From Bolinopsis microptera (lineage: Eukaryota; Ctenophora; Tentaculata; Lobata; Bolinopsidae): 64,000 nt of DNA. The DNA is taken from positions 15,819,337 to 15,883,336 of the forward strand of contig NC_087080.1 of the NCBI RefSeq assembly GCF_026151205.1, written 5' to 3'. Within the stretch, counting starts at the first letter, position 1; every line of letters begins with the position of its first letter. The position numbers and the translations under genes are program-made. The notes below the pieces were generated by a model. That model was not told the DNA's origin, made no database searches, and was given only the letters and a program-made list of their open reading frames with translations. Positions 29,950 through 62,635 of the stretch are shown here, piece after piece.

Positions 29950-30813
29950 TTAAAACTGCTGTGGGGTGTTTTTGGAATTGCTGAGATTGCGTTGCAGCAT
30001 TTGGACCCACCTCTTGGTGCTGTTATCATCCTGCTTGATCATCTTGTTAATGCTTCCATCTTTCAATTGCTCTGGCATGAGAGTGCGATTTAGTGCTTCT
30101 TTGGCCCTTGGGTTGTCTGTCAAGCGCAAGTAGCACCTCACTACATGCTTTAAAAGTCTCCCAGAGGGCTCTCTGACTAGACTGTCAACCATTGACTGTA
30201 GAACACTCGTGACACTCTTGAATCTCTCATAGGTATAACAGATGTAAGCAAGTCCATGATCATCAAGCAAGATCTTTTGAAGGATGAAAGTAGCAACAGT
30301 TTTGCTGAGTTCACTTCCGTGCTCCATGATTCTTAGCAGCAATGGAATTATTTCAGTGTTTAACAAGAACTGAATAACCTCCTTGTCATCAGGTTTAACC
30401 AAAGCACCCACAACACCAAGACTAGTCAGTCTCAGATACTCAAACTGACGGAGTTTAGATGTGGTGTGTAAGAAAGGATACAAGAACAGTGGAATATTAG
30501 CCATCAGGAAGTAAGATCTTGTCTCCTGATGAGAAGCAACACATTGCAATAGAGCAAGAGCATTGCATACGCTGTTACTCTGCTGAGCAGTGAGTTGGGG
30601 AGGTGATATAAGGGGATAAATTGCAATAATTTCTTGTAATAGAGCTGTTATTGTTCCAAATGAATGCCACAGCAAAGGAGCAAGATCTGGAACTAATTCT
30701 CGTTTCTTGCTCAGTTCTGCAAGTGATTGTTCCCTTGTTTCTGGATTCAAAAGGTTCTGTACCCATTGATAAATCTGCTCCCGGTCGACAGTTGCTTTTG
30801 GACTGCTAGTCAT
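29950..30813 (-). CDS. CNOT9: CCR4-NOT complex subunit 9 (Rcd1/CAF40), intronless
   Basis: This armadillo-repeat scaffold of the CCR4-NOT deadenylase links RNA-binding adaptors and GW182/TNRC6 to mRNA decay. One uninterrupted frame of 287 aa (human protein 299) covers the whole Rcd1 domain. It contains the strongly conserved blocks [76 protein letters not shown] and [20 protein letters not shown]. The Met chosen is the first in frame and gives a typical N-terminus ([10 protein letters not shown]). Its neighbours have many introns and CNOT9 in vertebrates is intron-containing, so this copy may be a retrocopy or may have lost introns. The frame is intact and conserved, arguing for function. A hAT element lies 126 bp upstream. 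Confidence 0.96.
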
Positions 30814-30947
30814 AACTGAAGCAAATTTTGGAAATTTAGTAACATAAAATCTTTAAATCAACAACTATTGTATGTGCAGGTTATAGATCTGGAAACTGAT
30901 TGAGAAGTGAGCCATTCCCAACACGTGACAGTGATTTTCCTTTCAGC

Positions 30948-39400: not shown

Positions 39401-42085
39401 ATATATGTGAGATGTGGTCTTCCCCTTCGACGATGTCCTTGAAGGGGTCCCAAGAAGAGAAGTTGATGACTCAATAGTTCTTCATGTCTGGCTAAATGAC
39501 CTGCCAGTCTCATCCTCCGTGCAGCTATCTTATCAGATGCTCTGATGAGGTGTCCATACACCTTGGCGTTAGTCTGCCGCTCTTTCCAGTCAATGTTCAG
39601 TGCCATCCTCAGCATTCTCGTATAACATCCATCAATACGTTTTGCGAGGGTCTGGCTGACAGTCCATGTTTCAGAGCCATATAGAAGGATGGACTCGACT
39701 GTAGCCAGGAACAGTCGTATCTTGAGATCTCTACGCATATCCGACTTCCATACAAGCTTCATCTGGTGACACGCTCCCCATGCCTTAGCTTTCCTCACTT
39801 CGAAGTCCTTCTCCGAACTCTTCATTCTACTACCCAAGTATACAAAGTCATCGACTTTCTCAATGTTCTTCCCACTCCCAGCAACCAGAGTCGGGTTATC
39901 ATCATCTCTTATGTTGATTCCCATGTACTTAGTTTTCCCCTCGTTGAGGTGGAGTCCAACTGAGTTGGCCGCCAGTTCCAGACTCCTGAGGAAATCTTGT
40001 GCCTCCGCAACACTATCTGTTTTAAGAGCAAGGTCGTCAGCAAAGTCCGCATCAGTGACCTTGACAGCCGGATAGCGACGACTTCTTCTAGGGTGTAGAG
40101 TAAACCCAAAGTCCCTACCCTCTAAGGACAGTGGACACTCTCATAATGTAGTCAATTACGATTATGAATAGGTAGGGCGCCAAAGTGTCTCCCTGCATCA
40201 CTCCTGCTAGAATGAAGAATGCTTCACTCAGACCATCCTCGGTAATCACACGAGCAAATGTATCTGCATACATTCTTTGTATCAAGCCTACAATCTCCTT
40301 AGGAATTCCATATGCCAGGAGGATCTTCATGAGGAGTCCACGGTGCACGCTGTCGAATGCCTTTTTGAAATCAATGAAGAGCATTACCGCGGTCAGATTA
40401 TTATATAAAGCGAGACGATATATTTTAATACTTTCAATACTTTCAATACTTTCAACACTACTATATAACAAATAATTTGAGGAAACGATGTAACAGAGTC
40501 GATCTATTTTAATGTTGCCATGGGGTGGTAAGTCCCCATACATCGTGGTCCGGTAGTTTTATTGCGTCCTAATATATGGGGGGTTCCGTACCATTTTACT
40601 GACACCACGGCATCAACTTTAACGCGACTTTCCGCAAAAACCGTAAAAGATATACAACTGAAACTTTTTTGACTGGGTCAAATGCTTTAATGGCCTCCAA
40701 ATCAGCATGAAAAAATAAAAAATTGACCAAGAAATAGGAGTTTTAGATCCCAAAATTTGGACCCCCAAGTGGTGTCAAAACCGCGAATTAAATAGGTAAT
40801 AATTATTTTAGTCTCTTGAGTCATGACACCATTTTAGGGTTATACGGGTTCCTGCTAGTTACTATAATGCTAGAGGTAATGGAAATATTTACTTCCAGGG
40901 ACTTGGAGCAAGAACGCTGGTAAATATCTGAGCGGCTACAGCGTAGGAACCGCCAAATACGACAGTCTTCTGAAGGCTCAGAGCGAATGTCTCATACGAT
41001 CCGGTCAGTTCAAACTTGCAGTTAATTTGATGATAAATTAGAAAGTTTATTGGTTATCTTGAAATTGAATACACAAAAGATATACAAAATCTCTGGTAAA
41101 ATATTAATTCACCTTAAATGCCACCTTCTCCTACCAGACTGTGGAGGTATCACATACGAGACCCTATCCAAAAAGTTCACTCTGCGAAGAGGAGTCAACC
41201 TCAAGGACAGTCCCTCCAGTGAAATCTCCTGGATGGCTATCTCAAGCGAAGGTAACCAATTATTTTTGGCGCTACATATACTAGCTATCGATAGGTAATA
41301 CTAGTGAGCGCTAGTGAACATAATAGCTTGGGGTCCCCATGTAAGCGAGTCCTTCCTATCTCTGGACTCTGTCTAATTCGCTTTTATTGTCATAAACGTT
41401 GTTATTGGATGAGATTTTCTCGGCTTCTAAAGAGCTTAACAACCACTTCTTTATTATCATTAGATAGTGACTATTATCAAGTAAACAAATCCAAACTGTC
41501 AAAGTCACGTGAGTCCTCCCGTTCAGTGGCGTAACGTTACCTGTTACCCCCCCCCCCACTGCTCCCGTTCAGTGGCGTAACGTTACCTGTTACCCCCCCC
41601 CCCCCACTGCTCCCGTTCAGTGGCGTAACGTTACCTGTTACCCCCCCCCCCCCCCCACTGCTCCCGTTCAGTGGCGTAACGTTACCTGTTACCCCCCCCC
41701 CACTGCTCCCGTTCAGTGGCGTAACGTTACCTGTTACCCCCCCCCCCCCCCACTGCTCCCGTTCAGTGGCGTAACGTTACCTGTTACCCCCCCCCCCCCC
41801 CCCCCACTGCTCCCGTTCAGTGGCGTAACGTTACCTGTTACCCCCCCCCCCCACTGCTCCCGTTCAGTGGCGTAACGTTACCTGTTACCCCCCCCCCCCC
41901 CCCCCCCCACTGCTCCCGTTCAGTGGCGTAACGTTACCTGTTACCCCCCCCCCCCCCCCCCCACTGCTCCCGTTCAGTGGCGTAACGTTACCTGTTACCC
42001 CCCCCCCCCCCCCCCCCCCACCCCCACTGCTCCCGTTCAGTGGCGTAACGTTACCCCCCCCCCCCCCCCCGTAACGTTACCTGTT

Positions 42086-44384: not shown

Positions 44385-46348
44385 GATCTCTGAATCCTGA
44401 TTGCTATTAATTATGCAAATTTTAACCAATTTTGTTCATTATTTCAGAATATTATTTAGTAGACAAATTACTTTCGAACTGTGTCCATATTATTTATTCA
44501 AATCTAAAACAAAAAAAATTATTTGACTTCAAAATTTTTCAATCTGTATAAGAGCTAATTATGACGAAGGGAGGTCACAAAGCTTCGTGCCGGGGTGTTT
44601 ATGTAAATTCTAAACCCTAACCCTAACAGTAACCCCGAAGCCATCCCATATCCATAACCTTAATCACAACCCTAACCGGGTTAGAATTAGGGTAACCCTT
44701 TGTTACCCTTATATACCATGACCCTTATAGTCATGGTATGTTGACGCGTAGCAGGGTATTTTAGTTTAAGACTTTAAATTAGAATCGCAAAATTAGCCGT
44801 ATTATTCCTCCAAACTTACGACTTAGATGGACTGAGATTAGCCCTTAAAATACAGCTTACACTTTTTACCTTATGATTGGGTCGTTATTCTAAAAAAATT
44901 TGTCAAGAAGTGTGGCTCACCGGTCACTTAACGTCACTTGTAGCGACCAAGGTCTGCGACTGGCTGCAACAGGTGCATATGATCTGTGACACGAGATATC
45001 CTTGTGTTTGGCTTGTACTAACTCTAATTGGGTATTTCGTCACAAGTCATGCGACTCGATATACATAAAACCAATACTAGGGTGGATGGTTTTTTTTTAC
45101 GTTTTTATGGAATTGGTACCGTTGTAAAGCTTACATTATGACAGTTCAGATGGCGAAATTTTTATCGAAAATGGACCTGACATTGTTTTGGAAATAACAA
45201 TAATATCAAATGAGTTTACAATAATATCCATGACCAATTTAACCATACTTAAGCTTTTTGACTACTCCTACAAGATTAGCCTTGCTAAAAGTCGCCTGAA
45301 AAAGGCACTTCTAAAGCTGCAACATGCTTATAATGATTCAGCATGGACTTCAAGCGATTATGACATAATGCAGCTGTCATTTGAAAACAATCCCCTTCAA
45401 CAAATGTAATCCAGTGTTCTCACTTCTCGGCCCACAGGTTCCTCCTATTAAAAAATTTTTGATTTTGGTAAATGTGTGCTGACTCCACCACCTATGTATT
45501 TAACCTAATATTTAGTGTATTACAGGTAGACATTGACTTAGGTAGGTATTTTTCTCTTAAGGTAGATATTAAGAATTTGGTAAATTTCCTAATTGTATGA
45601 CTATTTCCATTATTGAGACGTTTTAAATATTTGATTTAAGAGGTTTTTTTTTATAGGACTGGTTCACAGTGCGAACAGATTCCAGATTTATATATTTTTT
45701 AAGTGATATTTAATAAATGATTAAAAGAACCAATTTTAAAGTTGCCATAGTAAAGCCTTTAGGTCCAAAAATATACCCATTATGCTCACGTAAAAACAAC
45801 TCTAAATCAGTAGGCTGTCACTCTATTAATGCACCACACCGCTTCCTCCACTGCACTAAAAGTTATACAATAAATTCTTCAATCCTAATTTTGTATCGTG
45901 ATGGAGACCGGTGTCCATACAAACATTTTACTAGGTTGCCGTTTGGTGTGAGCAATAGCGAACAGCACGAACACTCCTTTGCCCCGTCAACCTATATCTA
46001 ATCTATTTAAAGAGTGACAACCATACTACACATTGAATTAGGATTCCTTTAAATATCAAATTGATTTATTGTAAACTTGTTTACTCTGTAATAAATGGCA
46101 TAAAATTGAATTTTTGTTTAACTGAATTTTTTCCCGATCCATGACTCAAAAGTGCCGAAGGCACAAAAGAGTCAAGGACAAGGGTTAGCGATCGAGGTTT
46201 TTTTTGTATATGGTAGCTTTGCGACCGTGCCTGCGTGCGAGTGTGCGTGCGTGCGTACGTGCCTGCGCGCGTTGTTGTCGCTGGTGGCAATATTTGCTTT
46301 GTATCCTACTAAGTGTAAAATGCGCTCCCCATGGTTACATAATTCAGC
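44385..46348. other. Region between the secreted-protein gene and the Helitron gene
   Basis: Contains CCCTAA-like runs near 44610-44680. Two short plus-strand open frames (45188-45409 and 45717-46001) have no recognisable domain. The second includes Cys and His residues (CSRKNNSKSVGCHSI, FLHCTKSY) but is not supported as a gene. The left end of the Helitron should lie somewhere here; I could not identify a terminus. Confidence 0.45.
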
Positions 46349-46355
46349 TATAAAT
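46349..46355 (+). promoter_or_regulatory. TATA box of the Helitron gene
   Basis: TATAAAT lies 77 bp before the ATG at 46433, a usual distance for a TATA box with a short 5' UTR. Confidence 0.55.
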
Positions 46356-46432
46356 GCGACCGGGACACGGAACTAACTCTTTTCCCTCGATATTTTCACA
46401 CAAACGTTATAAATTACATTTTGATTAAAGAT

Positions 46433-49400
46433 ATGAGATTCAAGTTATTGCTAATTGCTATTCTCGCCTTTTCTTATGATTTTGGACCTGGCCCTGGCAA
46501 TTTAATAGAAAATGAATGTTATCATGATTTAACTATTGTGTGGTCCTGTGTGGTTGATTTTGTTATGGCTGTTTTAACCCCCCTCGCTCAATTATCCGCT
46601 GGAGTGATTACAAACATTCACTGTTATGTTAATAGCATACAGTATATTTGGTTACTGTTTCTACATCACTCCGTGTATTTCTCTCACAACGGGGGTGGTG
46701 TTTGTAAAGGTTTCAGATTTAGGAGGCTGTTCTTCGTGTCAAACAGGTTGAGTGCGGTGTTAGTCACATCCGTACTCTTGTCGGCTGCTTTCGTGGACAT
46801 CCGCATGCTCTCTACTACAGGTGATGAATTTCACAATTTTATCTAGGCAACGGTATAAATAAAACACGTCATAATTTATAAAGGAATAATATTATTAAAC
46901 ACTTTTATTAAATTTTATTTACAAACACTTATCAATATCATACTAATATTTAACTAGGGTTTTATAAATTGATAATAATACTGTTTCTCTCCTAGGTTTA
47001 ACGCTCTTTGAGTGTGATACCTGGATTGTATTGTGCACACCCCAGGAATTGTTTATTGTTCGCAATTCAATTCTGCCACAATGCAATCTGTGGTCAGGTG
47101 TGTGCAGTCTGCTGTTGTTGCTCTCTGGAGATATTGAGTTAAATCCAGGACCAACCACATCATTTGTGCAAACTAATGATAGAACCGTGTTTACTGACAA
47201 GAAGGTTAATTTCTTTATAATCTTCTGTGCTCCTTTATTTCAAGTATTCGCTTTCAATGCAATTGTTAACAATTCCATTTAAGATGTTTAATTAACCCCA
47301 AATTTGATAGATGCACTTATCACTAATATTCCCTATTTATCAGGTCGTTGTTATTGGAGATTCGATACCAAAGTATGTAGGGGATAGTACCAATGAAACA
47401 GAGAAAGAAAGGTTTGTGGATTCATACAAAAGTTTAGAAGTCCTTGCATGTCGAGGCAAGGCCATCTCGCAGATTACTGACTGTGTGTACAATCTCAGAC
47501 GGGCAGTTGTAGATTTACAGGCTGATATCGTTTACGTTTTGCTGGGCACCAATAACATCTGTGGTCGCTCAGCTTGTAATCAACAACAGTTTGCAGCTGC
47601 TTTCAATGAATTCATTGATGCTGTTAACAATAAATTCAAACGTGCTCATGTTATTGTCAATGTCATAATACCTAGACTTGATATTAGCCCTACCTTAATG
47701 GACAAGTTAGCTGCTTTCAATAAGGAAATACATGGTCTTTCGTTTAGGCGTGGATGTACTGTAATTTCATCCCCCTGGGACAAAACTAGAACAGATCCTA
47801 GGGTCTATCTGGCTAAGGATAACCTGCACCTTAGCTATCGTGGCAATGTCATGTTGAAGAAAATCGTGAAAGCAAATATTCACGCTTACTCACATGGCAT
47901 CTCCTCATTGCCACATGATCTACTCTGCTATGTCGAGGATAGTTTCCAACCAACGGTTATGCCCCTTTCTTCTTTTCCCAATTATGTAAACAATTCCTGG
48001 GACTCGGCTTACACGGGGTCATCTAAACCTCCACCAGACCCTGCACCTGCTCCTATTGCTTCATTAACTATTCAACCTGTCACTGATTCTCAGGAGGAAG
48101 CGTCCCATTCACAGTACTTTCCTCAACCCGTCCAAGTCCAACTTAGGACATACGCTTCTGTAACATCTCACAGTTTATCTGTTGATCGGACCACTCGCCA
48201 TTACCATCTCAATTCAGATACTACCGTTGCTCAATCTACTCGAAGTCCTCTTCCATCTGTGGGTTCTCATACATCCATACCAGTCACTGTACCACTAACA
48301 GCTCATCAATACGATGATTCCACTCATTTGACCACTAATCCTGCTGTTTCGGCATCTGCATCGGCAACTGCTTCTGCGGCTATAGCTGTTATTCGAACAT
48401 CTACTCTACCAGCTGCCGCTCAACCTATTCTGGCTCCTGCTACATCTGCTTCACCTACCACTGCATCAGCTCCTTCTCCTGCAGACCCTCCTTGTGCTCC
48501 ACTTGCCCTCCGACTTGATTCTGCTCCATCACTTCTTGAACCAGCTCCAACTACTCCTATCCCTAATCCTGTTCCTGCTACCCCTTCATCACTTCCTGAT
48601 CCAACTGCCCAACCAGATGCTACCAATGCTCCTCCATCTGCTTCAACTGACCCTATTGCATCTACGTCATCAATTTTGTCCAAGTGCCCAGATTGGCTTA
48701 GTAAAAGGTTAAGTTATTACAAGAATTTCCTATCTGCCCGTATTGTACAGGAGGTTGAGAAACTGCTTCTAGCAAAGGTTGCACAGGGTATGTTTGTTAG
48801 ACAGGGCATCAATTCTTCAAAGGTCCTTCTTTTCGGTGAGCATAAATATATTTATAACAGGGCCACTATGCATCTTAGTCCTATCCCTATTCGATCCTAT
48901 CCTATACTGCAAACAGTTTTGTTCATGGTCAATATTAAGCTTTCATCCAACTTCAACAGCATATTGGTTAATTTTTACGAGGACCCCTCTATTATCTTAC
49001 CTTATCACAAGGATGATGAGCGGCACTTGGACAAGTCTGCAAAAATTGCAACGCTCTCAATTGGGGCTACACGTAATATGGATTTTGCTGCGTGTAAAAA
49101 GGAGCGCCCCTCATATAGTCAGCAGCTTCTCTCCAATTCTTTATTTGTCATGCATCCTGAGACACAGGTATCTTTTTTTCATCGTATTGCGCCCGGTAGT
49201 TTCTCTTGTCATTCCCTTGGCTACCGTTTCAGTCTCACATTCAGAACGCTCAAGCCAAGATCTACTTCACATCCCAGCACCCTTGATAAGAATGAAGGGG
49301 TGTCGTCTACATTTACTCCTTTACCTAATCCTATTCCTGCTACCCCTTCATCACTTCCTGCTCCAACTGCCCAACCAGATGCTACCAATGCTCCTCCATC

Positions 49401-52400
49401 TGCTCTGGCTCCTGCTACATCTGCTTCACCTATCACTGCATCAGCTCCTTCTCCTGCAGACCCTCCTTGTGCTCCACTTGCCCTCCGACCTGATTCTGCT
49501 CCATCACTTCTTGAAGCAGCTACATTTACTCCTATACCTAACCCTGTTCCTGCTACCCCTTCATCACTTCCTGATCCAACTGCCCAACCAGATGCTACCA
49601 ATGCTCCTCCATCTGCTCTGGCTCCTGCTACATCTGCTTCACCTACCACTGCATCAGCTCCTTCTCCTGCAGACCCTCCTTGTGCTCCACTTGCCCTCCG
49701 ACCTGATTCTGCTCCATCACTTCTTGAACCAGCTCCAACTACTCCTATCCCTAATCCTGTTCCTGCTACCCCTTCATCACTTCCTGATCCAACTGCCCAA
49801 CCAGATGCTACCAATGCTCCTCCATCTGCTCTGGCTCCTGCTACATCTGCTTCACCTACCACTGCATCAGCTCCTTCTCCTGCAGACCCTCCTTGTGCTC
49901 CACTTGCCCTCCGACCTGATTCTGCTCCATCACTTCTTGAAGCAGCTACATTTACTCCTATACCTAACCCTGTTCTTGCTACCCCTTCATCATTTCCTGC
50001 TCCAACTGCCCGACCAGATCCACCATCACAAGAATCTTTGCAACCAGCGTATATCAAGCTACTTCTTTCATCATCCGGTGAATTTACACCACCAGCAGTT
50101 GTACACAGTCCGCAACCTTGCCATAACATAATGTTATTTTTGTCAGCCCACCAACAGCCTGCACAGCTGGCCCACTCTCTCACTTCAACAGCTTCTCCCC
50201 TTCTCTCTCCGCAGATAAATCAGACAGTTCAATTGTCACCTATCTCTTTAAAGTCGCCTATCCCCTCAGACACACTTCCATCGTCATCACCTCATTCTTC
50301 TTCACGTATGCAAATTCAGTCCACATTACCTAACACTTTTTCATTAATACCGTTGTCGATGCAATTTCAAAATAATACGAATTTATATTTGGTTCAACAT
50401 CCCTACAAGTCCCCATACTTATCATATAACAGAAATATTATGCTATCTCTAGCATTATCAACATACCAGCAGCCGACACAGCTGGCCTTCTCGAACACTT
50501 TAAGCAGTGATTATCTTTTCTTGAAGGAACACGGTTCGGTTCAATCACTACCTTTACCTCCTGCCACTGAATTACATAGTTGTTGTAATTCATATGAGCA
50601 ATTGGGTGGTGGGACTAAAAATGAATTTATTGATAATGAAGCTGCCCACTCCTCTGACGATACCCTAGGCATTGACAGTGATACATCTGACTGCATCTTC
50701 GACGACTTTATCGACGACACCCCTATCTCACAAGAGCATGTTCCCTTTTTTGACCCGTACAATGACACTCAGACAGACGAGTCAAAACATAGAAGGCTCA
50801 ATCTTACAGAGGAGAACAAACAGAAGGAGAGAGATAGACAGAAACAGAGAAGACTGAATAAGACGCTGACAGAGGAAGAAAAACAAAAGAAAAGAGACAA
50901 GGCCAAACAGGATAGACTGAACAAGACGCTGACAGAGGAAGAAAAACAAAAGAAAAGAGACAAGGCCAAACAGGATAGACTGAACAAGACGCTGACAGAG
51001 GAAGAAAAACAAAAGAAAAGAGACAAGGCCAAACAGGATAGACTGAACAAGACGCTGACAGAGGAAGAAAAACAAAAGAAAAGAGACAAGGCCAAACAGG
51101 ATAGACTGAACAAGACGCTAACAGAGGAAGAAAAACAAAAGAAAAGAGACAAGGACAAACAGGACAGACTGAACAAGACGCTGACAGAGGAGGAAAAACA
51201 AAAGAAAAGAGACAAGGCCAAACAGGATAGACTGAACAAGACGCTGACAGAGGAAGATAAACAAAAGAAAAGAGACAAGGCCAAACAGGATAGACTGAAC
51301 AAGACGCTGACAGAGGAGGAAAAACAAAAGAAAAGAGACAAGAACAAACAGGATAGACTGAACAAGACGCTGACAGAGGAGGAAAAACAAAAGAAAAGGG
51401 ACAAGGCTAAACAGTACAGACTGAATATGACAGAGGAAGACAAACAGAAAGAGAGGGATAGACTAAAGCAAGCTCGTATTCGACGGAAGCTAACTAAAAC
51501 GGAGGGGTTGCATAACATATCAGTTGAAACCATCACACAGACAATATTTTCACCCCTCTCATCTACTCAGACTTACACCTCACCCCATGACTCAACTAAA
51601 ACAAGCAATTATGACAGACAAAAACATTCTCAGTCACCACCGCGACCGTACAAATTGTTTACTTCCCCATTACCAAATTCTGACAGAGCCACAACTCCTA
51701 CAACATCACTGCCCTCTCCCAGACTTACACAGTCTGCAGAATCTACTAACGAAGCCCCAGATGGTCATGACAAACCCGATTTTGAAGTTATTTCAGCCTT
51801 CCGTAGTATTATGAAAGAATATCCTGAATATGAATGTGCTAATTGCAATACTTTAAATTTTCGTCAAAATGTTGTCAAATTTGACAGAACATCTGCCAAA
51901 TCTGGGAAACAGCAAACTTGGATTTGCAAACGGTGTAACAGTTATCGCAAGTCTAACAAAATTTGTCCACTGGCTACTATACCCATGAAACTCGAAACTG
52001 GTTCATTACCAGACAATCTTGTCATGAATCCAACAGAGACCCGCCTTGTAGCAATGCGTATCCAGTTTATGAAGATACGGTCTTTACCTGCTGGTGGCCA
52101 ACGTGGTATTAGGGGCGCGGTTGTTAATGTCCCGATTGATGCCCAGGAAAGTTGTCTAAAACTCCCTCGGAATATTCCCGATCTTGGAGTTCTTAAGGTT
52201 AAAATTAAGCGTGATGTAAGCCACAAAACTGTTGTTTTAGTTGATGATGTGGACCCTAAGAAATGCATTAATGTCTTAATATGGTTAAAAAAGCATAACC
52301 CACTGTATACTTTCACTGTACTGAATGACGATTGGATTAAAGGCAAATACAATGACCACCAAGACTTCTTTAACGTACATTTTGCAGACAATGCTCATGT

Positions 52401-55400
52401 TATCGCTTCATCGCTGGTTGACGAAATTGTAGCAAACATATGTAATGAGGGTACATACGACCAACTGCCCTATGAGCATTGTATTCAATATAAGGATCCT
52501 CTGCAAAATTTTATCCACGAAGTTCCAGTTATGGACTTTGCACCAGGACAAGGGAAGACACCGATACCTGCCTTATCTGACTCATTAGCAGAGCCTTTAT
52601 CATTTCCGAACCTGTTTCCCCTGGGGAAAGGCCATTTTCATGACTCAGATAGGCAAGCCTTGATTGCCAGCAAACTTATCCCAAAGTTAAGTAGAAAACA
52701 ATATGCTAAACATCACCTTTACTCTGCAGATAGAAAATTTGCCATGGATCCTGAGTACATATTTTTCACGCAAGCATGTGTCGAACGTGAATCAATCTAC
52801 AATGCTGCATCAATACACCTTCAAAAGTCACGCAAAATCAGCACAGATGGTATTAGGTTGACAGCCGGTCTTTTTACTAATAAACTCATAAGCACAGAAC
52901 AATTATTGAATAATATTGATGCATTTCGTTACATGAAAGACGTTAAGGGCACACCTGCATTCTGGCAGAGGGTAAAAAGCGATGCGTTGGGCATGGTTAG
53001 TCAATTGGGTACCTTCACGTGGTTCTTAACTTTTAGTTTCAATGACTTGGTTTATTCGATTCCAGCCATATTGACTTTGATGGGGATAGAACCTTCCGAT
53101 CAATTACTAACGGACATTTCGTGGCATCGCAAACATGAGCTCTTGCGTACTGATCCGGTTATAGCAGTTCGCATGTTTGATAGATATATTCGTAAAATAA
53201 TATCGTTCCTTCTCGAGAAAAAACAAATTCTTGGCGCAACCGAGGCTTATACAGGCCGTGATGAATTTGGTGACAGGGGCTCTCCACATTTTCACATGAT
53301 GTTAAAGTGTATTGGAGCACCTATAGTTGGGGTGGATTCTATTGAAACTATAATAAAGTATATAGACAAATACATCACTACTAAAAAACCTACCCCAGAG
53401 GAGGATCCTGTGCTTAGTGCTTTGGTAAAACTCCAAACACATTCTCATACAAAAACTTGCAGAAAAGGTGTTGCTGAAGATGCTTGCAGATTCTTCTTTC
53501 CGAGGCCAATTTCCAGAAGAACTATCATTGTAGATGCTGACGGAAAAGAGATGACCAATGCTGACCTACACAATATATCAGCAGACAGGAACAAAGGCCG
53601 AAAAAGTCGTGTCATCTATATTAGGCAAATCGGTGCGGAGCTTATAAATCCGTACAATGAAACGTTGCTTCGTTGCTTGGAATCTAACATTGATGTTCAG
53701 TATATTGTGGGGATGTGGGACATGGTCAATTATTTAGTTAATTATGCGACAAAAACTGAGAAGGACGTTTGCGATGCCATGAAAGACGTCAAAAATAATA
53801 TTATGCATGATGAAAACAAGAATGCTCGAGACAAATTAAAATCACTAGGAAATGTTTTCATTGACGCAAGGTCTGTTTCCATACAAGAGTCTGTATTCCG
53901 AACAACTGACCTACCCATGAAATTCTCGTATCCTAAGGTGATTTTTGTGCCATCAGACATGCCTGATCAACGCCATGGTATGTTAAAGTTCCGTCGTGAC
54001 ATGGAAAATATGCCTGAAGACTCTGATGACATATTTATGAAAGGGTACATTGATCGTTATCCACAGAGGCCTGATTCTTTGAAGGAAATGTGCTACAAAG
54101 AATTCGCTGTAAATTATGAAAAATGTTGTAATATTACGAAATCTAATGTTGACCGAACTATTCAGTTGAAGGACGCAACATTGGGAACAATGATTAAAAG
54201 GACTGGTCCTCAAATTGTTCGTAGTCACACACCATCTAGAAAAACAGATCCGGAGAAATACTACTATAGCAAGATTTGTTTATACTTTCCTTGGACTGAT
54301 GAGGCACAAATATTGGGGAATTATACTACAGTTGAGGAGTCATTTGTTGCAAAATACGACGTCATAAAATTAAACATGCAAAAATTTGAACACATTGATG
54401 AGGCAACCCTTGATTCTATGATAAGTGAAATTACCGAAGATATTTTAAATTCGCACGTGCCCATTAATGTTCACGATGACAAACTTGATCCGCGTGGTCT
54501 CGCAAGCCATCCACCAAACAATTTGAAACGTGAAGAGGATACTGAAAACTTCAAGTTCACTTACGAGGAGCCACCAATTACCGAACAAGAATACAACAGT
54601 ATGGTCAGCTCTCTCAATGAAAAGCAACGTGACATATTTTCTATGATTCAGACTCATGCTCAGAACGCGAACGATGGTAAGAAAGTAAACCAACTTATAC
54701 ACTTCATAAGTGGAGCTGGTGGTGTTGGTAAATCATTCCTCATTACAGCTATAAGGCACTGTATAAACCGCACGTTCAAAAGAGGCTCCCACAACTCTGC
54801 TGTTTTGGTTTCCGCCAGCACTGGTGTTGCTGCCGCCCTCATAGATGGACAAACCGTTCACAAGTTACTTCAACTTGATTGCCAAGAGGGTGGTTTTTTT
54901 AATCAAAAGTCTTTAAATTCTGCAAAAAGAGACAAAATGTTCAACTCCATCTTTAAGCATGTTAGGTACCTCATCATTGACGAAGTATCTATGATAGGCA
55001 ATACAAATTTAAATCAAATTCACAGCAGATTAAATCAATTATTCGGGATGTCCGGCACCAAAGACTATTTTGGCGGAATAAACATCATTTTTGTAGGAGA
55101 TCTCTTCCAAATTCCACCCGTGCAACAAACTAAAATATTCGATCCGAGGGGCCTTGCAGCACTTGGTGTCAATTTTTGGAAAGATTTCTGTACCTTTTCT
55201 GAGCTGACTGACGTAGTTAGGAGCAAAGGGGACGCGCCCTTTACTGAACTTTGTCATCGGCTAAGGACTGGGCAGCATACCGAGAAAGATGTTAGTTTAC
55301 TACAGTCAAGAGTGATACCACAATTACCAAACGTAAGTCAACTCATGGACAGTATGCTTCTATTCTCTACAAATGCAAAATGTTCTGAGCATAACAAAAA

Positions 55401-56991
55401 GTGTGTTGACCACCTTACAGCTACCACCAAAGTTCATAACATTATGGCCCATGATAAGTTCTCTAATGAGCAGTTTAACAATAGCAATCAGACTGACAAA
55501 CGTGACAAAAAAAACATCAAAGACTATGTTACTGACGACATAAACAAGACCGCTGGACTGCCAACCTCAATTATTTTAGGGCTTGGGGCACGTGTAATGG
55601 TCCGTGCAAATATCAACGTGAATGATAAATTATGTAACGGTGTTTGCGGAACTGTGAAGCACATTAAATTCAAAAATACCCCAGACACGTCTAACAGCAA
55701 CAATGTGTCTGTGAAAGTTATAGACAAGGTATATGTTAAATTTGATATGGAAAAAGTTGGTAGAAAAATAATGCATTTGTGCAACAAATTTTGCCATCAA
55801 AATTGTACACTAGCAGGTACAGTGCCGATCAGTCCTGTAGAAAAACAGTTCAAGTGCAAAAAGGTTAAGAAAACAAATGTATGGCTAAAAAGGTACCAGC
55901 TACCACTAACATTGTGCTGGGCCTCAACTATCCATAAATGTCAAGGAGTCACCTTGCAAAATGCATACATAGACCTCTCTGGCATAAACTGGAAGGCGGG
56001 CATGGCCTACACAGCTATATCACGGCTCACTTCGATGGCAGGTTTGTTTCTCATCTCCTTCGATAAAAGGTGCATAAGAACAGACCCTCAAATAGTAAGA
56101 GAATATAAACGTCTTCGATCCTTGCCTCCTTTCCAGTTAAATGATGCAACAAGTGACATCATTAAATCTCCTATTATTCAACCGAGTGAAAGTCCACAGA
56201 GTGAAAGCTCCCTTGCAAGCACTCGATTATCTTCACAGAAATTACGAACCCCACCAAGCCCTTCAAGTAGGCCTCTTTCCAAAAAACAACGAGTTGAAAG
56301 CCCTACACTACCAAACAGTAAACGGCCTTCACCAGCATCTCCCATCATTAACGGTAACCGCAAGTGTCCTCGGTTATCTTCACCTGCAATGGCTACACCA
56401 AATTCGCAATTTAACAGCCTATTGTCAAAGGGTAAGGCCTACGTCATAGACTTCAACGATGACCCGCAATCCAGCCGTTTTGCCACACAGTTGGTCACAC
56501 TGGGTTTTAATGTCCGGAGGACAATAAATCGCTTCCAGGAAGGTGTCAGCTGTGGCTACATAGCGGCGCGGGTTATTGCTAAATTGAATGCGGCTACTAT
56601 TTCAAACGTCAACTGTTTCGATATTGATGTATTCGATTGCAATTACAATGGCAGAAACAGTGCTGAACTAGACATGGTAGCGGTGGCAAATATCCATCTG
56701 GGGTTGCCTGGTTCCAAGCCTCATTTTTTGTATGCTTCACAATGCCTTACTTTGATTACTTTTTACTCCATGCTCTATTATAACAAGTCTATAGCAACCT
56801 TAAATTTCAATGAACTCAATATAGAGCAACCGTTGAGTAAGACTAGCTTCACACATAAACTCAATCAAATTGTCGTACAAGACAAGGCAATTCCACCAAC
56901 ATTTTTTACAGTTAATGCATCGGACCAGCAAGGGACACACTGGTTTGTGGTAGTTATTGAAATACCTTTAGATTCGCAGAATGAGCAGTAG
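46433..56991 (+). CDS. Giant Helitron polyprotein: 2A, SGNH esterase, AlkB-like oxygenase, HUH Rep, Pif1 helicase, cysteine-protease-like tail
   Basis: Rolling-circle transposon protein. Exons 46433-46820, 46996-47204 and 47344-56991 join in phase to about 3414 aa. The last exon alone is open for 3226 aa from ATG 47311. Order: hydrophobic leader (MRFKLLLIAILAFSY); 2A motif DIELNPGP (47130-47153); SGNH hydrolase with GDS (47356), LLGTNN and DNLHLS (47818); AlkB-like fold with HxD (YHKD, 49006) and FFHRI (49180); 213-bp Pro/Ala/Ser repeats (48430-50010); 60-bp Lys/Glu repeats (50850-51420); a CxxC-x-CxxC region (from 51835); Rep with HFH (53287-53295) and NYLVNYATK (two Tyr, 53731 and 53743); helicase with GAGGVGKS (about 54712), LIIDEVSM and TIHKCQGVTL; C-terminal protease-like region with SCGY (Cys 56551) and GTHWFVVV (His 56938). 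The nuclease should nick and join DNA and the helicase unwind it; the other domains' roles are unknown. There is no stop or frameshift, so the element may be recent. The weak donor GTTAAT at 47205 makes the second intron less certain. Confidence 0.9.
46821..46995 (+). other. Predicted first intron of the Helitron gene
   Basis: It runs from GTGATGAATT to TTTCTCTCCTAG and contains in-frame stops. The exons on each side are phase 1 and continue hydrophobic sequence into the 2A region. Confidence 0.7.
47130..47153 (+). other. 2A ribosome-skipping motif (DxExNPGP type)
   Basis: The eight codons give DIELNPGP, preceded by a Leu-rich segment (VCSLLLLLSG). Canonical 2A peptides have D-x-E-x-N-P-G-P and release the upstream product after the Gly. 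Here that would separate the hydrophobic N-terminal protein from the esterase-helicase protein. Confidence 0.88.
48430..50010 (+). repeat. 213-bp in-frame tandem repeat coding a Pro/Ala/Ser-rich linker
   Basis: Unit starts at 49405, 49618 and 49831 are exactly 213 bp apart; an earlier copy starts at 48430, before the AlkB-like segment. Each codes about 71 aa (TSASPTTASAPSPADPPCA and so on). One copy is thus separated from the others by the oxygenase domain. Confidence 0.95.
50850..51425 (+). repeat. 60-bp in-frame tandem repeat coding a Lys/Glu-rich helix
   Basis: About ten copies of a 20-residue unit (LNKTLTEEEKQKKRDKAKQD). A long charged, probably single alpha-helical or coiled-coil rod. 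Copies are nearly identical at DNA level. Confidence 0.95.
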
Positions 56992-57764
56992 GCCTATATT
57001 ATCGTCATTCCCAGAGAAGAAGTTTATAACAAAAGCAGTAGTATACAGTTGGACATGAAATCTTTATACACACTAATTAAGATACTTCATTACCCTAATC
57101 TTATCCAAGCCATTCAATAGTAGCATTACAATTCTGGTATACTCTGCTGAATATTATTGAGATAATTATACTTATACATCATTTATCATAATATATTAAC
57201 TTGTAATACAGTAGGCTGGGATTATACACACAGTCAGTAATCTGCCCTATGTAGGTCAGCATATCGTGCAAAAAGATCACCAAGTCGAATATTACCTGAT
57301 AAAAGTGAACTAAGGTTGTGTTAGACATTTTGTCCCTACATGGGCTCCCGGCCGTGCGTCCATGTAGGAACTGTGGGGCCTTCCGAGTGATAGGGTTACA
57401 GTGACTGTTAGTAGCGAAAGTATGAAAGTTATACCAGTAGACACAATTACCGAACACAGGGCATTGGCTCGACCTCCAAGACAGGGTATCCGTGAGGACC
57501 CTGGTCGTAATCAGCTCTGCACTACTCCAGTGTATCCTGATGCCTGAAATCTTGGACACTGTCTACGTACGGGGTAGACGGCCACAGACGATTGCCTCTA
57601 TTGCTACCTTAGTTCACTTTTTGATTACAGCCAAATATTCAAAGTTGAGATGATCTACATTTTTGACACATACCTTGTATTATCAATTCTTCCCGGTATT
57701 CAAGCTTAATCTGAACAAACTTAAACACCTCTAGCAATAATTTTTTTTGGTCATATTTGGTGTT
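56992..57764. other. Helitron 3' flank
   Basis: Non-coding. A 21-nt stretch at 57223-57243 is the exact reverse complement of coding sequence at 47469-47489 within the esterase domain. The minus-strand open frame 57179-57559 is otherwise unrecognised. Confidence 0.5.
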
Positions 57765-58400
57765 TGATCTTTAGATATAAGTTTACAACAGACTTGTCTT
57801 TTACGACATCTTTTCAAGCATATTTTTCCACCCATTATCAACTATTTAAGTGAATTTCTGGTATGTTTAGATAAAACATCGCTGATTATAAGTTCACCGT
57901 AATAGTTGTATTATTACACTACAATTTATTACTAATCTTATTTAAATCATTCAGTGTGATTTGTATATTTGTATCTTTACATATAAGTTTACTACAGACT
58001 ACTATTTTACGATGTCTTTTCAAGCATATTTTTCCAGAAATTACCTACTATTCAAGTAAATTTCTGGTATGTTCAGATAAAACATCGCTGATTATAATTC
58101 ATACCGTAATAGTTCTATTATTACACTATAATTTATTACTAATCTTATTTAAATCCTTCAGCATGATTTGTATTAATTGTATATTTGTATCTTTAGATAT
58201 AAGTTCACTACAGACTACTATTTTGCGATGTCTTTTCAAGCATATTTTTCCAGAAATTACCTACTATTCAAGTAAATTTCTGGTATGTTCAGATAAAACA
58301 TCGCTCATTATAAGTCATACCGTAATAGTTGTATTATTACACTATAATTTATTACTAATCTTATTATCATCACCATGATTTGTATTTTTTGTATATTTGT
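57765..58400. repeat. About 206-216-bp tandem repeat, three copies
   Basis: The shared segment TTTTCAAGCATATTTTTCCA lies at about 57811, 58017 and 58233. The second and third copies are the most alike. Open frames here are repeat products. Confidence 0.9.
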
Positions 58401-60093
58401 ATCAATAACTGTAGATTAGATGTATTATAAGGATGCAGGTGGAGGACGTCCGATTGTGCTACCCGTGGGCACAACTCGTGTAATCCGGTAACAATAGAGA
58501 TCTTCTTTGACTTCTGTTGGCAAACACTCCACATATAGGTAAGTTCAGGTAAGTTCAGGTAAGTATGACCTAATTCCTATATTTAGATGACTTCTGCAGT
58601 GGACTATATACAATACTGATGCTCGTAACAGCCACAAATGTTACCATACTATCACCTAATGTCAATATCTAAAGATAAATACTGATATGATGATATTCTT
58701 TACTTTCCTCTCACATTCTAATTCACATTATATTGTAACAACTTCAGTCCAACATTCCAATCTAGGTTAGTTTATCTCCACATACTTCGATATATTTTAA
58801 AACTTACTCACTAATATACAATAATGAGATATACCCAGTTCAGCTAGTGTGTTCTGCACTTCCACAACATTTTCCAACGTTTGCTCCTCTAAACAAGTAC
58901 GCTGTCCTCTATCATTGAATGTTCACTTCGTTGCCCAAGATTGAATCAACATTCTGCAGAGTATGTAAAGCACATCTTCCAACGGTAATGAAACCTGATT
59001 TGGAAAATTTGATATTAATTTACAAATAAATCTGCAAACCACTTCCATCTAAAAATTTCACCACATGCACATGGCATAATACCTAACAAAACTCCAAAAA
59101 TGCCATAATATTAAAGGTATGTACATGATTCAAGATTATCCTCAATACTTACCTCAATGTTTTTCAGTCGCAACAAAACTTTTGATCAGAACCACCAACC
59201 ATGCCAGCATTTTCATCCACTCCAACAACACCGGTAACTTTATATTACCCTTGTCAGTCCTTAGTTAGATACCAGGTTCAATAAAGCTTTCAAAACTCTC
59301 TGAAATTAATATCATAGTAAATACCCTCTCGAGATTATAATTTTGTCATAACAGCTCCACGAAGATACTTCAAAGACATAATGCATATTAAAACTTTACA
59401 AACCTCTTTTACAGGTACCATATAGGACGTACTCTTATACTCAGTACACAATCATCATAGGCAATATCTACCACTTATCGAAAGTATCAACCACACTCCA
59501 CACATATCGGCGATTCGGCATATAGTTCATATCAAGAAATGCTATATCCGGGAATTTCATTAATGTTAAGGTTTGTTCATTAACAAATTATTACAAGAAA
59601 TAACCGTACTGAAACAATTCCTACAAAATATGTAACAGGTCACTCGTTGTACTTGTGACATCCTACAACAGCCATTTCAAATCACCAATACTTCAGGCAC
59701 CACAACAAAGTCGGATACAACAGCAACTGAGAAGAAAATTCGAACGACTACAAATCAATAGAAAGTTATAATGTACATGTTTTTTAACAACATCACCAGC
59801 TGGTAACACTCATACTACTTCACAACAACATCAGAAAATGGACGATCAGGACAGCTCACACACTCACTTTTCAATTATATAAGGTCACCACCATCAACAC
59901 TCCAAAACACTGTGCAATGATATTGCACCCACCTTACCTTCAACTCCAGTTTAATGATTTTTCTAACCAGTCCCGCCTTTACCTTTAATAATTATTAACA
60001 ATAATATGTTGGAATATATTTGTTAATTATGGGGATTTCTGGCATGTACATACAGTTGGTCATGAAAGCCTCAATTTTCTCTCCGCATAATGG
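58401..60093. other. AT-rich non-coding stretch right of the Helitron gene
   Basis: Includes a short GGTAAGTTCA repeat near 58538-58566. I see no gene. It may be internal non-coding DNA of the Helitron. Confidence 0.45.
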
Positions 60094-60149
60094 CCATAAT
60101 AGTTATCTTTAATAGTAGAGTCTACATGTATTAAAGATAACTATTATGG
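60094..60149. repeat. Perfect 21-bp hairpin, 14-nt loop
   Basis: CCATAATAGTTATCTTTAATA at 60094-60114 pairs exactly with 60129-60149. Helitrons end near a hairpin, but no CTRR terminus follows at the usual short distance, so its role is open. Confidence 0.85.
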
Positions 60150-60404
60150 TCAATTTGTAGACATATAAATGTTGCTACAAATATCCACACGAGTAACGTT
60201 CTATATCTTATTAGCTATATTTTGTTCCTGGTTTACTTACCTTCGCAATTGAACACAATTGCAATATCCTACACCTAACTTTTGTTTAAGCTACATTATT
60301 TATGATGAACTGCTTTCATTGGTGCCTGCGTGATTTTCTAATCTAACTTTTCTGCTGGTGACCTATATAATAGTTGATACAATTATGATGACTGTCAAAT
60401 ATTC

Positions 60405-60610
60405 AGTGTTTATGAACACTAGCAAAAACACCACTTCATCACTTGTCAGTGATTTTCAACTCTATCAACCACCATTTCATCATTCTCCAGTACTGCAGTA
60501 TTTTCAACACTACATCATTTATCAGTGTTTTTAAACACTAAAAACCAATACTACATCATTTCTCAGTGTTTTTTAACACTACATCATATATCACTGTTTC
60601 TCAACACTGG
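60405..60610. repeat. Cluster of small palindromes AGTGTTT..AACACT
   Basis: Five or so loosely spaced units alternate ACACTACATCATTTATCAGT with palindromic AGTGTTTTTTAACACT-type motifs. Confidence 0.75.
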
Positions 60611-61640
60611 ACCAAACAGACCAAGACTGCTACCAATCAGTGCATCAACCACAATATTCAGATAACTCTATCGATGTTCTAATCTGAACACATATACATG
60701 AAGCCAACCAACAACTCCTCATTCGTTAAACGCAGTCATCATTCTTGTATCAATAATATCAACCTGCGTCAAGAAACGGTATCGTTGCCTACACTTCGAC
60801 TCAACTTAGTCTTACAAGATTGACTAATCTCCACTGAAACAGTTCCTCATATTAAATACTAAGCTTTACAAAAAGTACAAACTGATACTCCGTATTAATT
60901 GTACACCGCCCAGTTCAAAGTATTTAACCAGATGTGAGGATATTTATAATAACATACATTCAACGGAATGTTCGCGTAAAATAAGTACGGATTTGGCATA
61001 TTTTACCCCATTGAGGCTCACATGACCAACCTTAATATATGATATTATTTAATGTAAAATAAAGAAACATTATTCACTAATAGAGTTCTCCTCGTTGCAC
61101 TAACTTTAATATTATGATACATACAAAAATTGTCTCATTGTTTACCAGAATACACCACAAATTCAAATTACCGGCCGGCTGTTTCTAATATATTCTCTAA
61201 CGCCAAACGGCAACAACACGCAAACAAAACTGTACAATTGTATAACTAAATGATCATCAATTTGTACATTCAATATCCTATCCAGCTGTATCACGCCACA
61301 TTTAGATTATTCCCACATCATTGGCTAAGATTTTCAGTATTACTATCACGCCACACTTGCGCAGTCCAATCACAAGGGTAGCATGTATCACGAGTTCATT
61401 TTTTATCCAACGCGAAACAATCTCAGGAATCTTAAGACTATGTAATCACTAGATCGCGCGGCTTTTTCAACCTTAAATGTACAATTATCTGCGCGCGGCT
61501 TTCTCCCCTTTCGAAATTTAAAATTTTATTGGCAAACGTTCATGTTCCGTTTTACACGTCAGCAACCCATAACTTTAAAGTTTAAAAGCATTTATAGCAC
61601 AATACCAGATCATTATTTGAATAACACACTTTTCGCTATC
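60611..61640. other. Non-coding stretch
   Basis: No gene or bounded element recognised. Confidence 0.45.
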
Positions 61641-61717
61641 ATCACCTGGGGACCCAAGGCTATTATGTTCATAAACATAAAGATTCGGCGGAATGACAGA
61701 CTGAGCACCGCCCAGTA
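61641..61717. mobile_element. 77-bp hAT-like micro-MITE (inverted copy)
   Basis: Reverse strand reads TACTGGGCGGTGCTCAGTC to TTGGGTCCCCAGGT. It is flanked by a perfect 8-bp TCGCTATC (61633-61640 and 61718-61725). A more diverged relative lies at about 61790-61890. Confidence 0.88.
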
Positions 61718-62156
61718 TCGCTATCCCAGTTACTCACTAATGTTCAATTAATTATTTCAAACCTTGCCTCACCACGACTTAATTTTACTTTGGCGGACCT
61801 CAGGCTATTACATATTTAATATTATGTTCATAAATATATAAAATAGAGATTCGACGGAATGACAGCAGACAGGCTTAGCGCGGCCTAATAAAACTTACTT
61901 GTTACTAGTTGATTGCACTTAAATTACAACAATTAATATAATTTTTAATTCCAATTTACTGCGCAGTGCAACCCAGTAGTTCAACATATTACATATTACA
62001 AACAATTTTGTCAACAAATCTGCCGCGTCGACAATTAGAATTTGTTGATATATTGAGTAAGTATTATTTAATATAGTTTAACCATTTCTATTATATAGGA
62101 AATATATATGTATATAGGAGATATCGCGGATCGGGAAATTGAGCGGTCGCCCACAA

Positions 62157-62178
62157 AAGAAATGCGGCCGCATTTCTT
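62157..62178. repeat. Perfect 22-bp palindrome
   Basis: AAGAAATGCGG joined to its reverse complement with no loop, in a short GC-rich patch. It could be the centre of a foldback element. Confidence 0.85.
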
Positions 62179-62635
62179 GTTGTTTAACTGATATAAAGAA
62201 ATACGGTCGGTGATCCAGTATTGAGCATATGTGCAACTGTGTGAGTTCATTATTCTAATTGCCCCCTTCGAGCAGCTAAGGTGCATCTCACTTGCAGTCA
62301 TGTGACCGAGATCACGTGATAACACCTTTAACTAACTTATAGCCCTGAGGATCAATTGGTACAATGTGTATTGAGGTAAATTGGTCGGGGTATGTTTTAT
62401 TATATATAATATCAGTATTTACACTGAAACATTCAATAGCTCTCCTTAGCTGTTGGAACAGTGAAAGACCAAAATATTAGATGTTAACCCTGAGCAAATT
62501 GTAGCTTGTAGTTGTACATTTAATATAATCAATAATACTACATACTACCTTGTCGGACTTTATTTAAACGGACTTTAGTTCATAGTTGGATGCTAGAAGC
62601 CCAAGTTTACAATTTACCGCAGAAATTTAGCTCGT

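Follow-up and report, generated by a model that had tools for sequence, protein, structure and literature searches.

A Helitron2-like transposon of the ctenophore Bolinopsis microptera with a 2A motif and a giant polyprotein frame carrying SGNH, AlkB, Rep and helicase domains

A 64,000-nt stretch of Bolinopsis microptera DNA (contig NC_087080.1, positions 15,819,337 to 15,883,336; the window hereafter) was analyzed, and a complete Helitron2-like element, copy A1, was found in it. The element is probably an autonomous rolling-circle transposon of the Helitron2 type, in which a single three-exon gene would give a leader and a giant polyprotein, with accessory enzymes retained as useful. The accessory set of 2A motif, SGNH hydrolase and AlkB looks new on a Helitron2-class element; neither the SGNH nor the AlkB module alone is new on transposable elements. 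A preliminary description of the sequence had called the domain set an unusual mosaic and a candidate for an undescribed system. This was too strong, as SGNH on a Helitron and AlkB on a transposable element are already in print separately. The features of the element are as follows, in window coordinates.

46127..62181, plus strand, complete Helitron2-like element, copy A1, 16,055 bp (similarity to a second copy, A2, starts and stops at these bases; the 5' similarity boundary falls inside a T run)
46127..46140, plus strand, 5' end TTTTTTCCCGATCC (boundary comparison and sequence)
46142..46174, plus strand, 5' subterminal hairpin TGACTC...GAGTCA (sequence and fold)
46433..46820, plus strand, predicted exon 1, N-terminal part of the hydrophobic leader (tblastn to family B, GT donor, open spliced frame)
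46996..47204, plus strand, predicted exon 2, remaining leader and 2A motif (AG/GT borders, conserved in family B)
47130..47153, plus strand, 2A (StopGo) octapeptide DIELNPGP within LLLLLSGDIELNPGP (sequence)
47344..56991, plus strand, predicted exon 3, giant frame (open frame; spliced protein 3,414 aa)
47344..47964, plus strand, SGNH/GDSL hydrolase domain (Pfam)
48706..49284, plus strand, AlkB (2-oxoglutarate (2OG)-Fe(II) oxygenase) domain (Pfam; closest solved relatives ALKBH3/ALKBH2)
49307..50019, plus strand, Pro/Ser/Ala-rich tandem repeats, 213-nt unit, coding linker (repeat analysis)
50842..51425, plus strand, basic KQKKRDK...LTEEE tandem repeats, 63-nt unit, coding (repeat analysis)
51988..52323, plus strand, DUF6570 (Pfam)
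52702..53304, plus strand, HUH Rep (Helitron_like_N) with PHFHM at 53284; the paired Tyr, YIDKY, lie a little downstream at 53359
54613..55233, plus strand, PIF1-like helicase (Pfam; Walker A at 54712)
56431..56976, plus strand, C-terminal Cys/His domain, candidate papain-like protease (motif conservation)
62128..62181, plus strand, 3' end: inverted repeat GGATCGGGAAA, palindrome at 62157-62178 (AAGAAATGCGGCCGCATTTCTT), then GTT

Element boundaries and Helitron2 class

The genome assembly (264.65 Mb, 232 contigs) was searched for related copies; its contigs C1-C6 and C8-C13 measure 15.2 to 26.2 Mb, and C7 at least 17.8 Mb. A1, A2, six family B copies and three family C copies were compared at their ends, and sharp common ends were found (the 5' end of one family C copy, C3, was not found). 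The ends of families B and C follow the same plan of end repeats as those of A, with different letters. In A, TTTCCCGATCC at the 5' end is the reverse complement of GGATCGGGAAA at 62128-62138, forming an asymmetric terminal inverted repeat of 11 nt, and the corresponding repeats are also read in families B and C. The 3' palindrome of A1 is perfect over 22 nt. Hairpins, both folded and read, are present at the two A1 ends, as in Helitron2. An HUH Rep with two Tyr is fused to a PIF1-type helicase, as in the Helitron superfamily. The span of 46433-56991 given in the preliminary description was too small, since the mobile element covers 46127-62181.

Two other classes were considered and rejected. 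Helentrons carry an apurinic/apyrimidinic (AP) endonuclease at the C-terminus; no such Pfam family matched the 3,226 aa of the giant frame at E values up to 1. Canonical Helitron (Helitron1) ends are 5'-TC and 3'-CTRR; instead, a T run followed by CC at the 5' end and TTCTTGTT at the 3' end were read in 13 two-ended copies, which had been located by these end motifs and by where similarity stops. The Helitron2-class assignment is well supported. In PMC4067079, Helitron2 is likewise described with a T run at the 5' edge, a palindrome at each end, asymmetric inverted repeats and a Rep/helicase that lacks AP endonuclease. It has a single Rep/Helicase open reading frame (ORF), whereas the A1 gene adds the leader, 2A, SGNH, AlkB and the C-terminal Cys/His domain.

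Helitron1 inserts between A and T, and Helitron2 between two T. In the copies compared here, the first 3' flanking base is variable (T in 3 of 10 long copies), and the T run blurs the 5' edge. The flanks share at most 7 nt in 12 of the 13 copies compared. A1 is unlike the other 12 and is flanked by a 10-nt direct repeat, GTTTAACTGA, at 46116-46125 and 62182-62191. Sharing of 10 nt was seen in 0 of 156 mismatched flank pairs, and this direct repeat is unexplained for an element type said to produce no target duplication. Within the 5.2 kb 3' of the stop codon, no frame of at least 25 aa had a tblastn match to B1, B4 or C1 (E 0.01). A tandem repeat with three copies of a 216-nt unit lies there, inside the element, at 57763-58403.

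Gene structure, leader and 2A motif

The giant Helitron frame reported in the preliminary description is intact: a single ORF covers 47311-56991 and encodes 3,226 aa without a stop. This 9.7-kb frame had been taken as the gene; the frame is real, but it corresponds to exon 3 of a predicted three-exon gene, and the ATG at 47311 falls within intron 2. The start at 46433 given earlier coincides with the start of exon 1, although upstream exons were not mentioned. Exon 1 shows 25-30% amino acid identity over the matched part to exon 1 of six family B copies by tblastn, and exon 2, in a tblastn search with the upstream frames, shows up to 47% identity over 47 aa to family B. Predicted GT-AG splicing gives open frames in A1 (3,414 aa), B1 (3,614 aa) and B4 (3,681 aa), with junctions at matching places. 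These are three of the eight A/B copies fetched with both ends. The leader is 181 aa long in A1 and 277 aa in B1 and contains stretches of high hydropathy; judged by eye, its start looks like a signal peptide.

The motif SGDIELNPGP (family A) or SGDVETNPGP (family B) is present in exon 2 of all eight A/B copies and agrees with the 2A consensus D(V/I)ExNPGP with a hydrophobic upstream context. The genome was searched with an exact DNA pattern for D(V/I/M)ExNPGP, variants with another first residue falling outside it; 13 sites were found in the 264.65 Mb, and a control pattern gave 0. Each of the 11 near-full-length SGNH matches has one of these sites 158-234 nt upstream (11/11 loci), which accounts for 11 of the 13. 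The other two are at C10:9263263 and at locus L041 on contig C5, which by eye adjoins a frame like a reverse transcriptase (RT). NPGP was not found in the three family C copies, one of which has no known 5' end. 2A in APE-type retrotransposons was reportedly described by Odon et al. in 2013. PMC12846837 and PMC4981915 describe the core octapeptide and the upstream context that it requires. In PMC4981915, D(V/I)ExNPGP ends an N-terminal hydrophobic stretch, as in the A1 leader; the 2A and 2A-like signal sequences there belong to non-LTR (long terminal repeat) elements, viruses and sea urchin NLR proteins, whereas the carrier here is a rolling-circle element. No paper naming both Helitron and NPGP was found in the literature search of this study, which covered mostly papers readable without subscription.

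Domains of the polyprotein

Pfam profiles were compared with the 3,226-aa frame. Lipase_GDSL_2 matched aa 14-179 (43.1 bits, cut-off 32.9), 2OG-FeII_Oxy_2 aa 512-645 (64.2, cut-off 31.2), DUF6570 aa 1560-1671 (43.0, cut-off 24.3), Helitron_like_N aa 1798-1998 (83.5, cut-off 28.9) and PIF1 aa 2435-2641 (86.3, cut-off 25.9). The SGNH, AlkB, Rep and helicase domains of the preliminary description were all confirmed above the cut-offs, and its placement of the SGNH, oxygenase, Rep, Walker A and Cys/His motifs was reproduced in the sequence.

The SGNH domain carries GDS at 47356, GTNN at 47545 and DNLHLS at 47818, which correspond to blocks I, III and V (GDS, GTNN, DxLH) of SGNH hydrolases in the block naming of PMC4021074. 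The SGNH search of the genome listed 17 matches, 11 of them near full length, including A1, and six short fragments.

The AlkB domain carries HKDD at 49003, H at 49177 and RFSLTFR at 49225. The HxD, H and R.....R residues are conserved in 11/11 rows (10 element proteins and the protein P0004, described below) and are invariant in all 16 aligned rows when proteins of LINE (long interspersed nuclear element) type are included. All 17 PDB matches of this domain up to E 1 are ALKBH3 (4), ALKBH2 (12) or AlkB (1), the best being ALKBH3 at 8e-14. By motifs and sequence proximity, the domain is nearest to the ALKBH2/3 type. ALKBH3, ALKBH2 and AlkB act on 1-methyladenine (1mA) and 3-methylcytosine (3mC), and ALKBH3 acts on single strands and RNA.

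The C-terminal domain has its Cys motif at 56536-56553 and its His motif at 56932-56943. Families A, B and C and P0004 share an invariant Gln with a Cys five residues after it, as well as an invariant Asn and His-Trp. In papain-like proteases, the Cys comes before the His and a Gln precedes the Cys. The order and the Gln fit a papain-like protease, as a guess from motifs. The Cys/His pair behind the earlier label 'protease-like' is present, and the protease identity stays at the level of a motif-based guess. For the Q-C...HW motif, a Josephin- or Ulp-like identity was also considered and is not claimed. No relative of the Cys/His or the AlkB domain was found among viral contigs in two scans.

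Copies, families and recent movement

The second copy, A2, lies at 11.08-11.10 Mb of contig C9, and A1 and A2 are about 91-95% identical in large blocks. B1 and B4 are about 91-97% identical, and families A and B are 40-73% identical, depending on the domain. The common order of both families is leader-2A-SGNH-AlkB-DUF6570-Rep-Hel-Cys. The part from SGNH to Cys is present in A1, A2 and B1-B5, so the domain order noticed in the window is not confined to it; B6 keeps the full order except for a DUF6570 match, with its Rep in pieces. In other public records, proteins P0001 and P0002 keep the order from within SGNH onward, and P0003 has the same order until its sequence ends within the helicase. 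That separate elements were joined in the assembly, or that the long frame arose by chance, has a negligible probability: both are refuted by the copies of the same order and with common ends on other contigs and by the related proteins elsewhere. Locus L042, looked at as a candidate for a stand-alone SGNH-AlkB element, proved over the 5.2 kb covered to be one more broken copy of family B.

Family C has SGNH with an intron of its own, and AlkB and 2A were not found in the sequence fetched. Neither SGNH nor AlkB was found in the 2,725-aa frame of family D that was scanned. The presence of families C and D in the same genome suggests a stepwise gain, with SGNH first and AlkB and the 2A leader later.

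A DNA search with the final 102 nt of A1 produced 444 candidates, of which 40 were scored: A1, A2, 37 matches at nt 44-102 (92-93%) and one at nt 17-102 (83%). With the 5' end of A2 (63 nt) as query there were 397 candidates; the 40 that were scored were all 100% identical, 35 over 63 nt and five over 62, one being A2 itself. A1 is absent from these 40, and its end has an indel there. Three of four short loci fetched carry both ends, 547-575 bp apart; no 5' end was found in the fourth. Among six further end pairs, five are 561-583 bp apart and one 968 bp. The identical ends at many places point to recent movement of the element family. The recent activity proposed in the preliminary description gains support from these short copies with shared ends and from the 39 scored loci with a 5' end identical to that of A2.

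Selection and exchange of the AlkB module

The ratio of nonsynonymous to synonymous substitution rates (dN/dS) was calculated by NG86 as mean dN over mean dS for 15 family B pairs (10 for DUF6570), broken copies included, and for the pair A1/A2. The values for family B and for A1/A2, respectively, are 0.28 and 0.49 for SGNH (the latter resting on few changes), 0.19 and 0.09 for AlkB, 0.08 and 0.05 for Rep, 0.21 and 0.27 for the helicase, 0.03 and 0.08 for Cys/His, 0.05 and 0.27 for DUF6570, 0.51 and 0.19 for exon 1, and 0.79 and 0.84 for the linker, whose repeats aligned poorly. Purifying selection acts on both SGNH and AlkB.

These values bear on another explanation, namely that SGNH and AlkB are passenger genes picked up by Helitron gene capture and carried unused. 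A fish Helitron that captured an SGNH gene has been published (PMC4021074); moreover, AlkB seems to move between families and was not found in family C or in the scanned family D frame. However, one frame joins the two domains in an unchanging order in both families, whose identity outside AlkB is 40-60%; purifying selection is seen, the catalytic residues are conserved, and the same architecture occurs in other public records. Carriage without use is accordingly improbable, though it keeps some weight.

The identity between A1 and B1 is 73% in AlkB, compared with 41% in SGNH, 48% in DUF6570, 55% in Rep, 59% in the helicase and 40% in Cys/His. P0003 is 90% identical to B1 in SGNH, 97% in DUF6570, 95% in Rep and 96% in the helicase (98 aa). 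Its AlkB is 76% identical to that of B1 and 84% to that of A1, and the Rep of A1 is only 54% identical to that of P0003. No single AlkB rate fits both comparisons, and exchange is the simplest reading: the AlkB module appears to have been exchanged between families A and B. The evidence for this is the conflict between the identities of different domains, as the AlkB tree is unrooted and alone fits both groupings of P0003. Alternatively, P0003 may be a chimeric contig. Within family B, dS is 0.22 in AlkB versus 0.05 in Rep, which again suggests that the parts of the element do not all share one history or mutation rate.

P0004 is a 2,249-aa protein without a Helitron domain in Pfam. Its AlkB is 62% and its Cys/His domain 30% identical to those of A1, which indicates that these two modules also co-occur outside Helitrons. 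P0004 is perhaps from another transposon class.

AlkB in LINE-type elements

The genome search with AlkB gave 727 candidates, of which 150 were scored. Beyond the Helitron copies, nearly all of these listed matches lie in frames of about 220-750 aa. Six LINE-type loci (L030-L035) were fetched, and all six have AlkB above the cut-off. A GDSL/SGNH match follows AlkB in four of the six (E < 0.01; only one above its own cut-off); in L034 and L035, SGNH-like blocks were discerned by eye only. A neighbouring frame with an AP endonuclease (APE) or RT match was found in five of six, the match of L032 falling below the family cut-off; in L034, no such frame was found within the 6 kb fetched. The AlkB of L030 is 41% identical to that of A1. 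Homologues of one LINE ORF1 of this genome number 69, and the five named by organism are all from Mnemiopsis leidyi. Kapitonov and Jurka (2003) are said to have reported the esterase of CR1-type elements. AlkB in LINE-type elements was not found in print in the literature search. The esterase in CR1-type elements is known (PMC4021074).

These loci raise the possibility that the SGNH-AlkB pair came from a LINE ORF1 in this genome and acts as a chaperone-like part that binds nucleic acids. The occurrence of AlkB in 6/6 loci, of GDSL/SGNH after it in 4/6 and of APE or RT beside it in 5/6 speaks for such an origin, as does the 41% identity of the L030 AlkB. The order is reversed, however, with AlkB before SGNH in the LINEs; the SGNH of the element had no BLASTP match to the six LINE-type proteins (E 1e-5); and in family C SGNH occurs without AlkB, suggesting that SGNH was the earlier arrival. 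This origin is unlikely, if somewhat less so than unused passengers.

Two side observations concern LINEs. A degenerate 2A-like SILNPGP lies near the start of the second frame of the LINE at L030, on the minus strand. In the window, a fragment at 39286-40140 on the minus strand resembles by eye the C-terminal part of a LINE reverse transcriptase.

Other features of the window

5979-6731, minus strand, long simple repeat coding PSTIHHP
18086-19882, minus strand, papain-type-peptidase-like frame with a ShK-like end (by eye)
29950-30852, minus strand, frame resembling by eye a gene of unnamed conserved type, which we take to be CNOT9-like

Discussion

The 2A motif, the hydrophobic leader, the element ends, DUF6570, the non-autonomous copies, the apparent AlkB exchange and AlkB in LINE-type elements had been overlooked in the preliminary description. 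The element with its ends, the conserved exons, the 2A motif, the domain order and its conservation, and the related short copies are all seen in the sequence itself, whereas splicing and 2A activity in the cell and the activity, substrate and role of each enzyme are inferred. The following mechanism can be proposed. One message would be translated, and the ribosome would make the 181-aa hydrophobic leader first. At the 2A, the Gly-Pro bond would be skipped, and translation would restart at the Pro to give a 3,233-aa polyprotein with the order SGNH - AlkB - DUF6570 - HUH Rep - PIF1 helicase - Cys/His domain. The Rep tyrosines would nick and rejoin DNA, the helicase would peel off a single strand, and the termini would end replication. 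The machinery would move full elements as well as their short non-autonomous relatives. The accessory enzymes would be retained because they help the element.

Roles can also be proposed for the accessory enzymes. From the 1mA and 3mC substrates of the ALKBH3/2 type, a guard function is suggested: AlkB would most likely reverse 1-methyladenine and 3-methylcytosine on the single-stranded DNA intermediate or on the element RNA. N6-methyladenosine (m6A) is a rival substrate, by analogy with the AlkB of an orchid Gypsy element. The C-terminal Cys/His domain would most likely cleave the polyprotein or remove ubiquitin; two kinds of deubiquitinase occur on Helentrons, which makes such a role plausible. 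The SGNH esterase would most likely act on a membrane or acyl substrate reached via the leader. An extended version is a virus-like expression plan, in which 2A would free a membrane-directed leader, an unseparated fraction would carry the esterase and Rep to membranes, and AlkB would guard the single strand. This plan is a long shot, less likely than either origin discussed above; if true, part of the life cycle would be membrane-associated, and this could aid transfer between cells or hosts.

Several points weigh against the autonomous Helitron2-type transposon with useful accessory enzymes. The exon structure is predicted from conservation and GT-AG borders, and 2A activity in the cell from the motif. 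Four of the eight A/B copies (A2, B3, B5, B6) are broken. In B2, exon 3 is open (3,366 aa), the exon 1 start was unmatched by the pattern, and the exon 1 match covers the second half only. Among the dN/dS values, the A1/A2 figure for SGNH, the family B means with their broken copies and the poorly aligned linker belong here as well. The Cys/His domain of the window copy had no match in Pfam (E 10) or in the PDB (E 10), and its AlphaFold2 model reached a predicted local distance difference test (pLDDT) score of 46 with a four-row alignment, three rows of which are 87% identical to the first; when P0004 was added, the domain was misaligned. Family C has near-identical copies with common ends, with no AlkB or 2A found in the sequence fetched, and its spread indicates that Helitrons in general can move without these two.

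The element was compared with known systems. The platyfish Helitron with the texim SGNH gene (PMC4021074) carries an SGNH hydrolase, as A1 does; the platyfish SGNH is a separate gene, whereas that of A1 is part of one fused frame, after the 2A and ahead of AlkB and Rep. The AlkB of an orchid Ty3/Gypsy element (PMC9289625) is of the ALKBH5 type, demethylates m6A on single-stranded RNA in vitro and has an intact HxD...H...RxxxxxR on a transposable element, as in A1. The orchid element is an LTR retrotransposon, whereas A1 is a rolling-circle element with an AlkB nearest to ALKBH3/2. Helentrons carry OTU or VTD deubiquitinase domains (PMC4067079, PMC9741609) and are, like A1, rolling-circle elements with a Cys-protease-type domain in or beside Rep/Hel. 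A1 differs in that no AP endonuclease was found and in that neither Pfam nor PDB sequences matched its Cys/His domain; SGNH, AlkB and 2A are not mentioned for these Helentrons in the available text of the two papers. The combination of 2A, SGNH and AlkB on a Helitron was not found described in the literature search, with Repbase reports lying outside its range.

Within one genome, AlkB is carried by rolling-circle DNA elements and by LINE-type retrotransposons, two unrelated transposon classes that each go through a single-stranded nucleic acid stage. Its presence in both allows two direct tests: whether transposition is limited by alkylation or methylation of bases in the intermediate, and whether transposons bring erasers of their own. 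The 2A in a DNA transposon, if it works, would add one more class of mobile element to those with virus-like translational recoding. Concrete material for such tests exists in the open frames of A1, B1 and B4.

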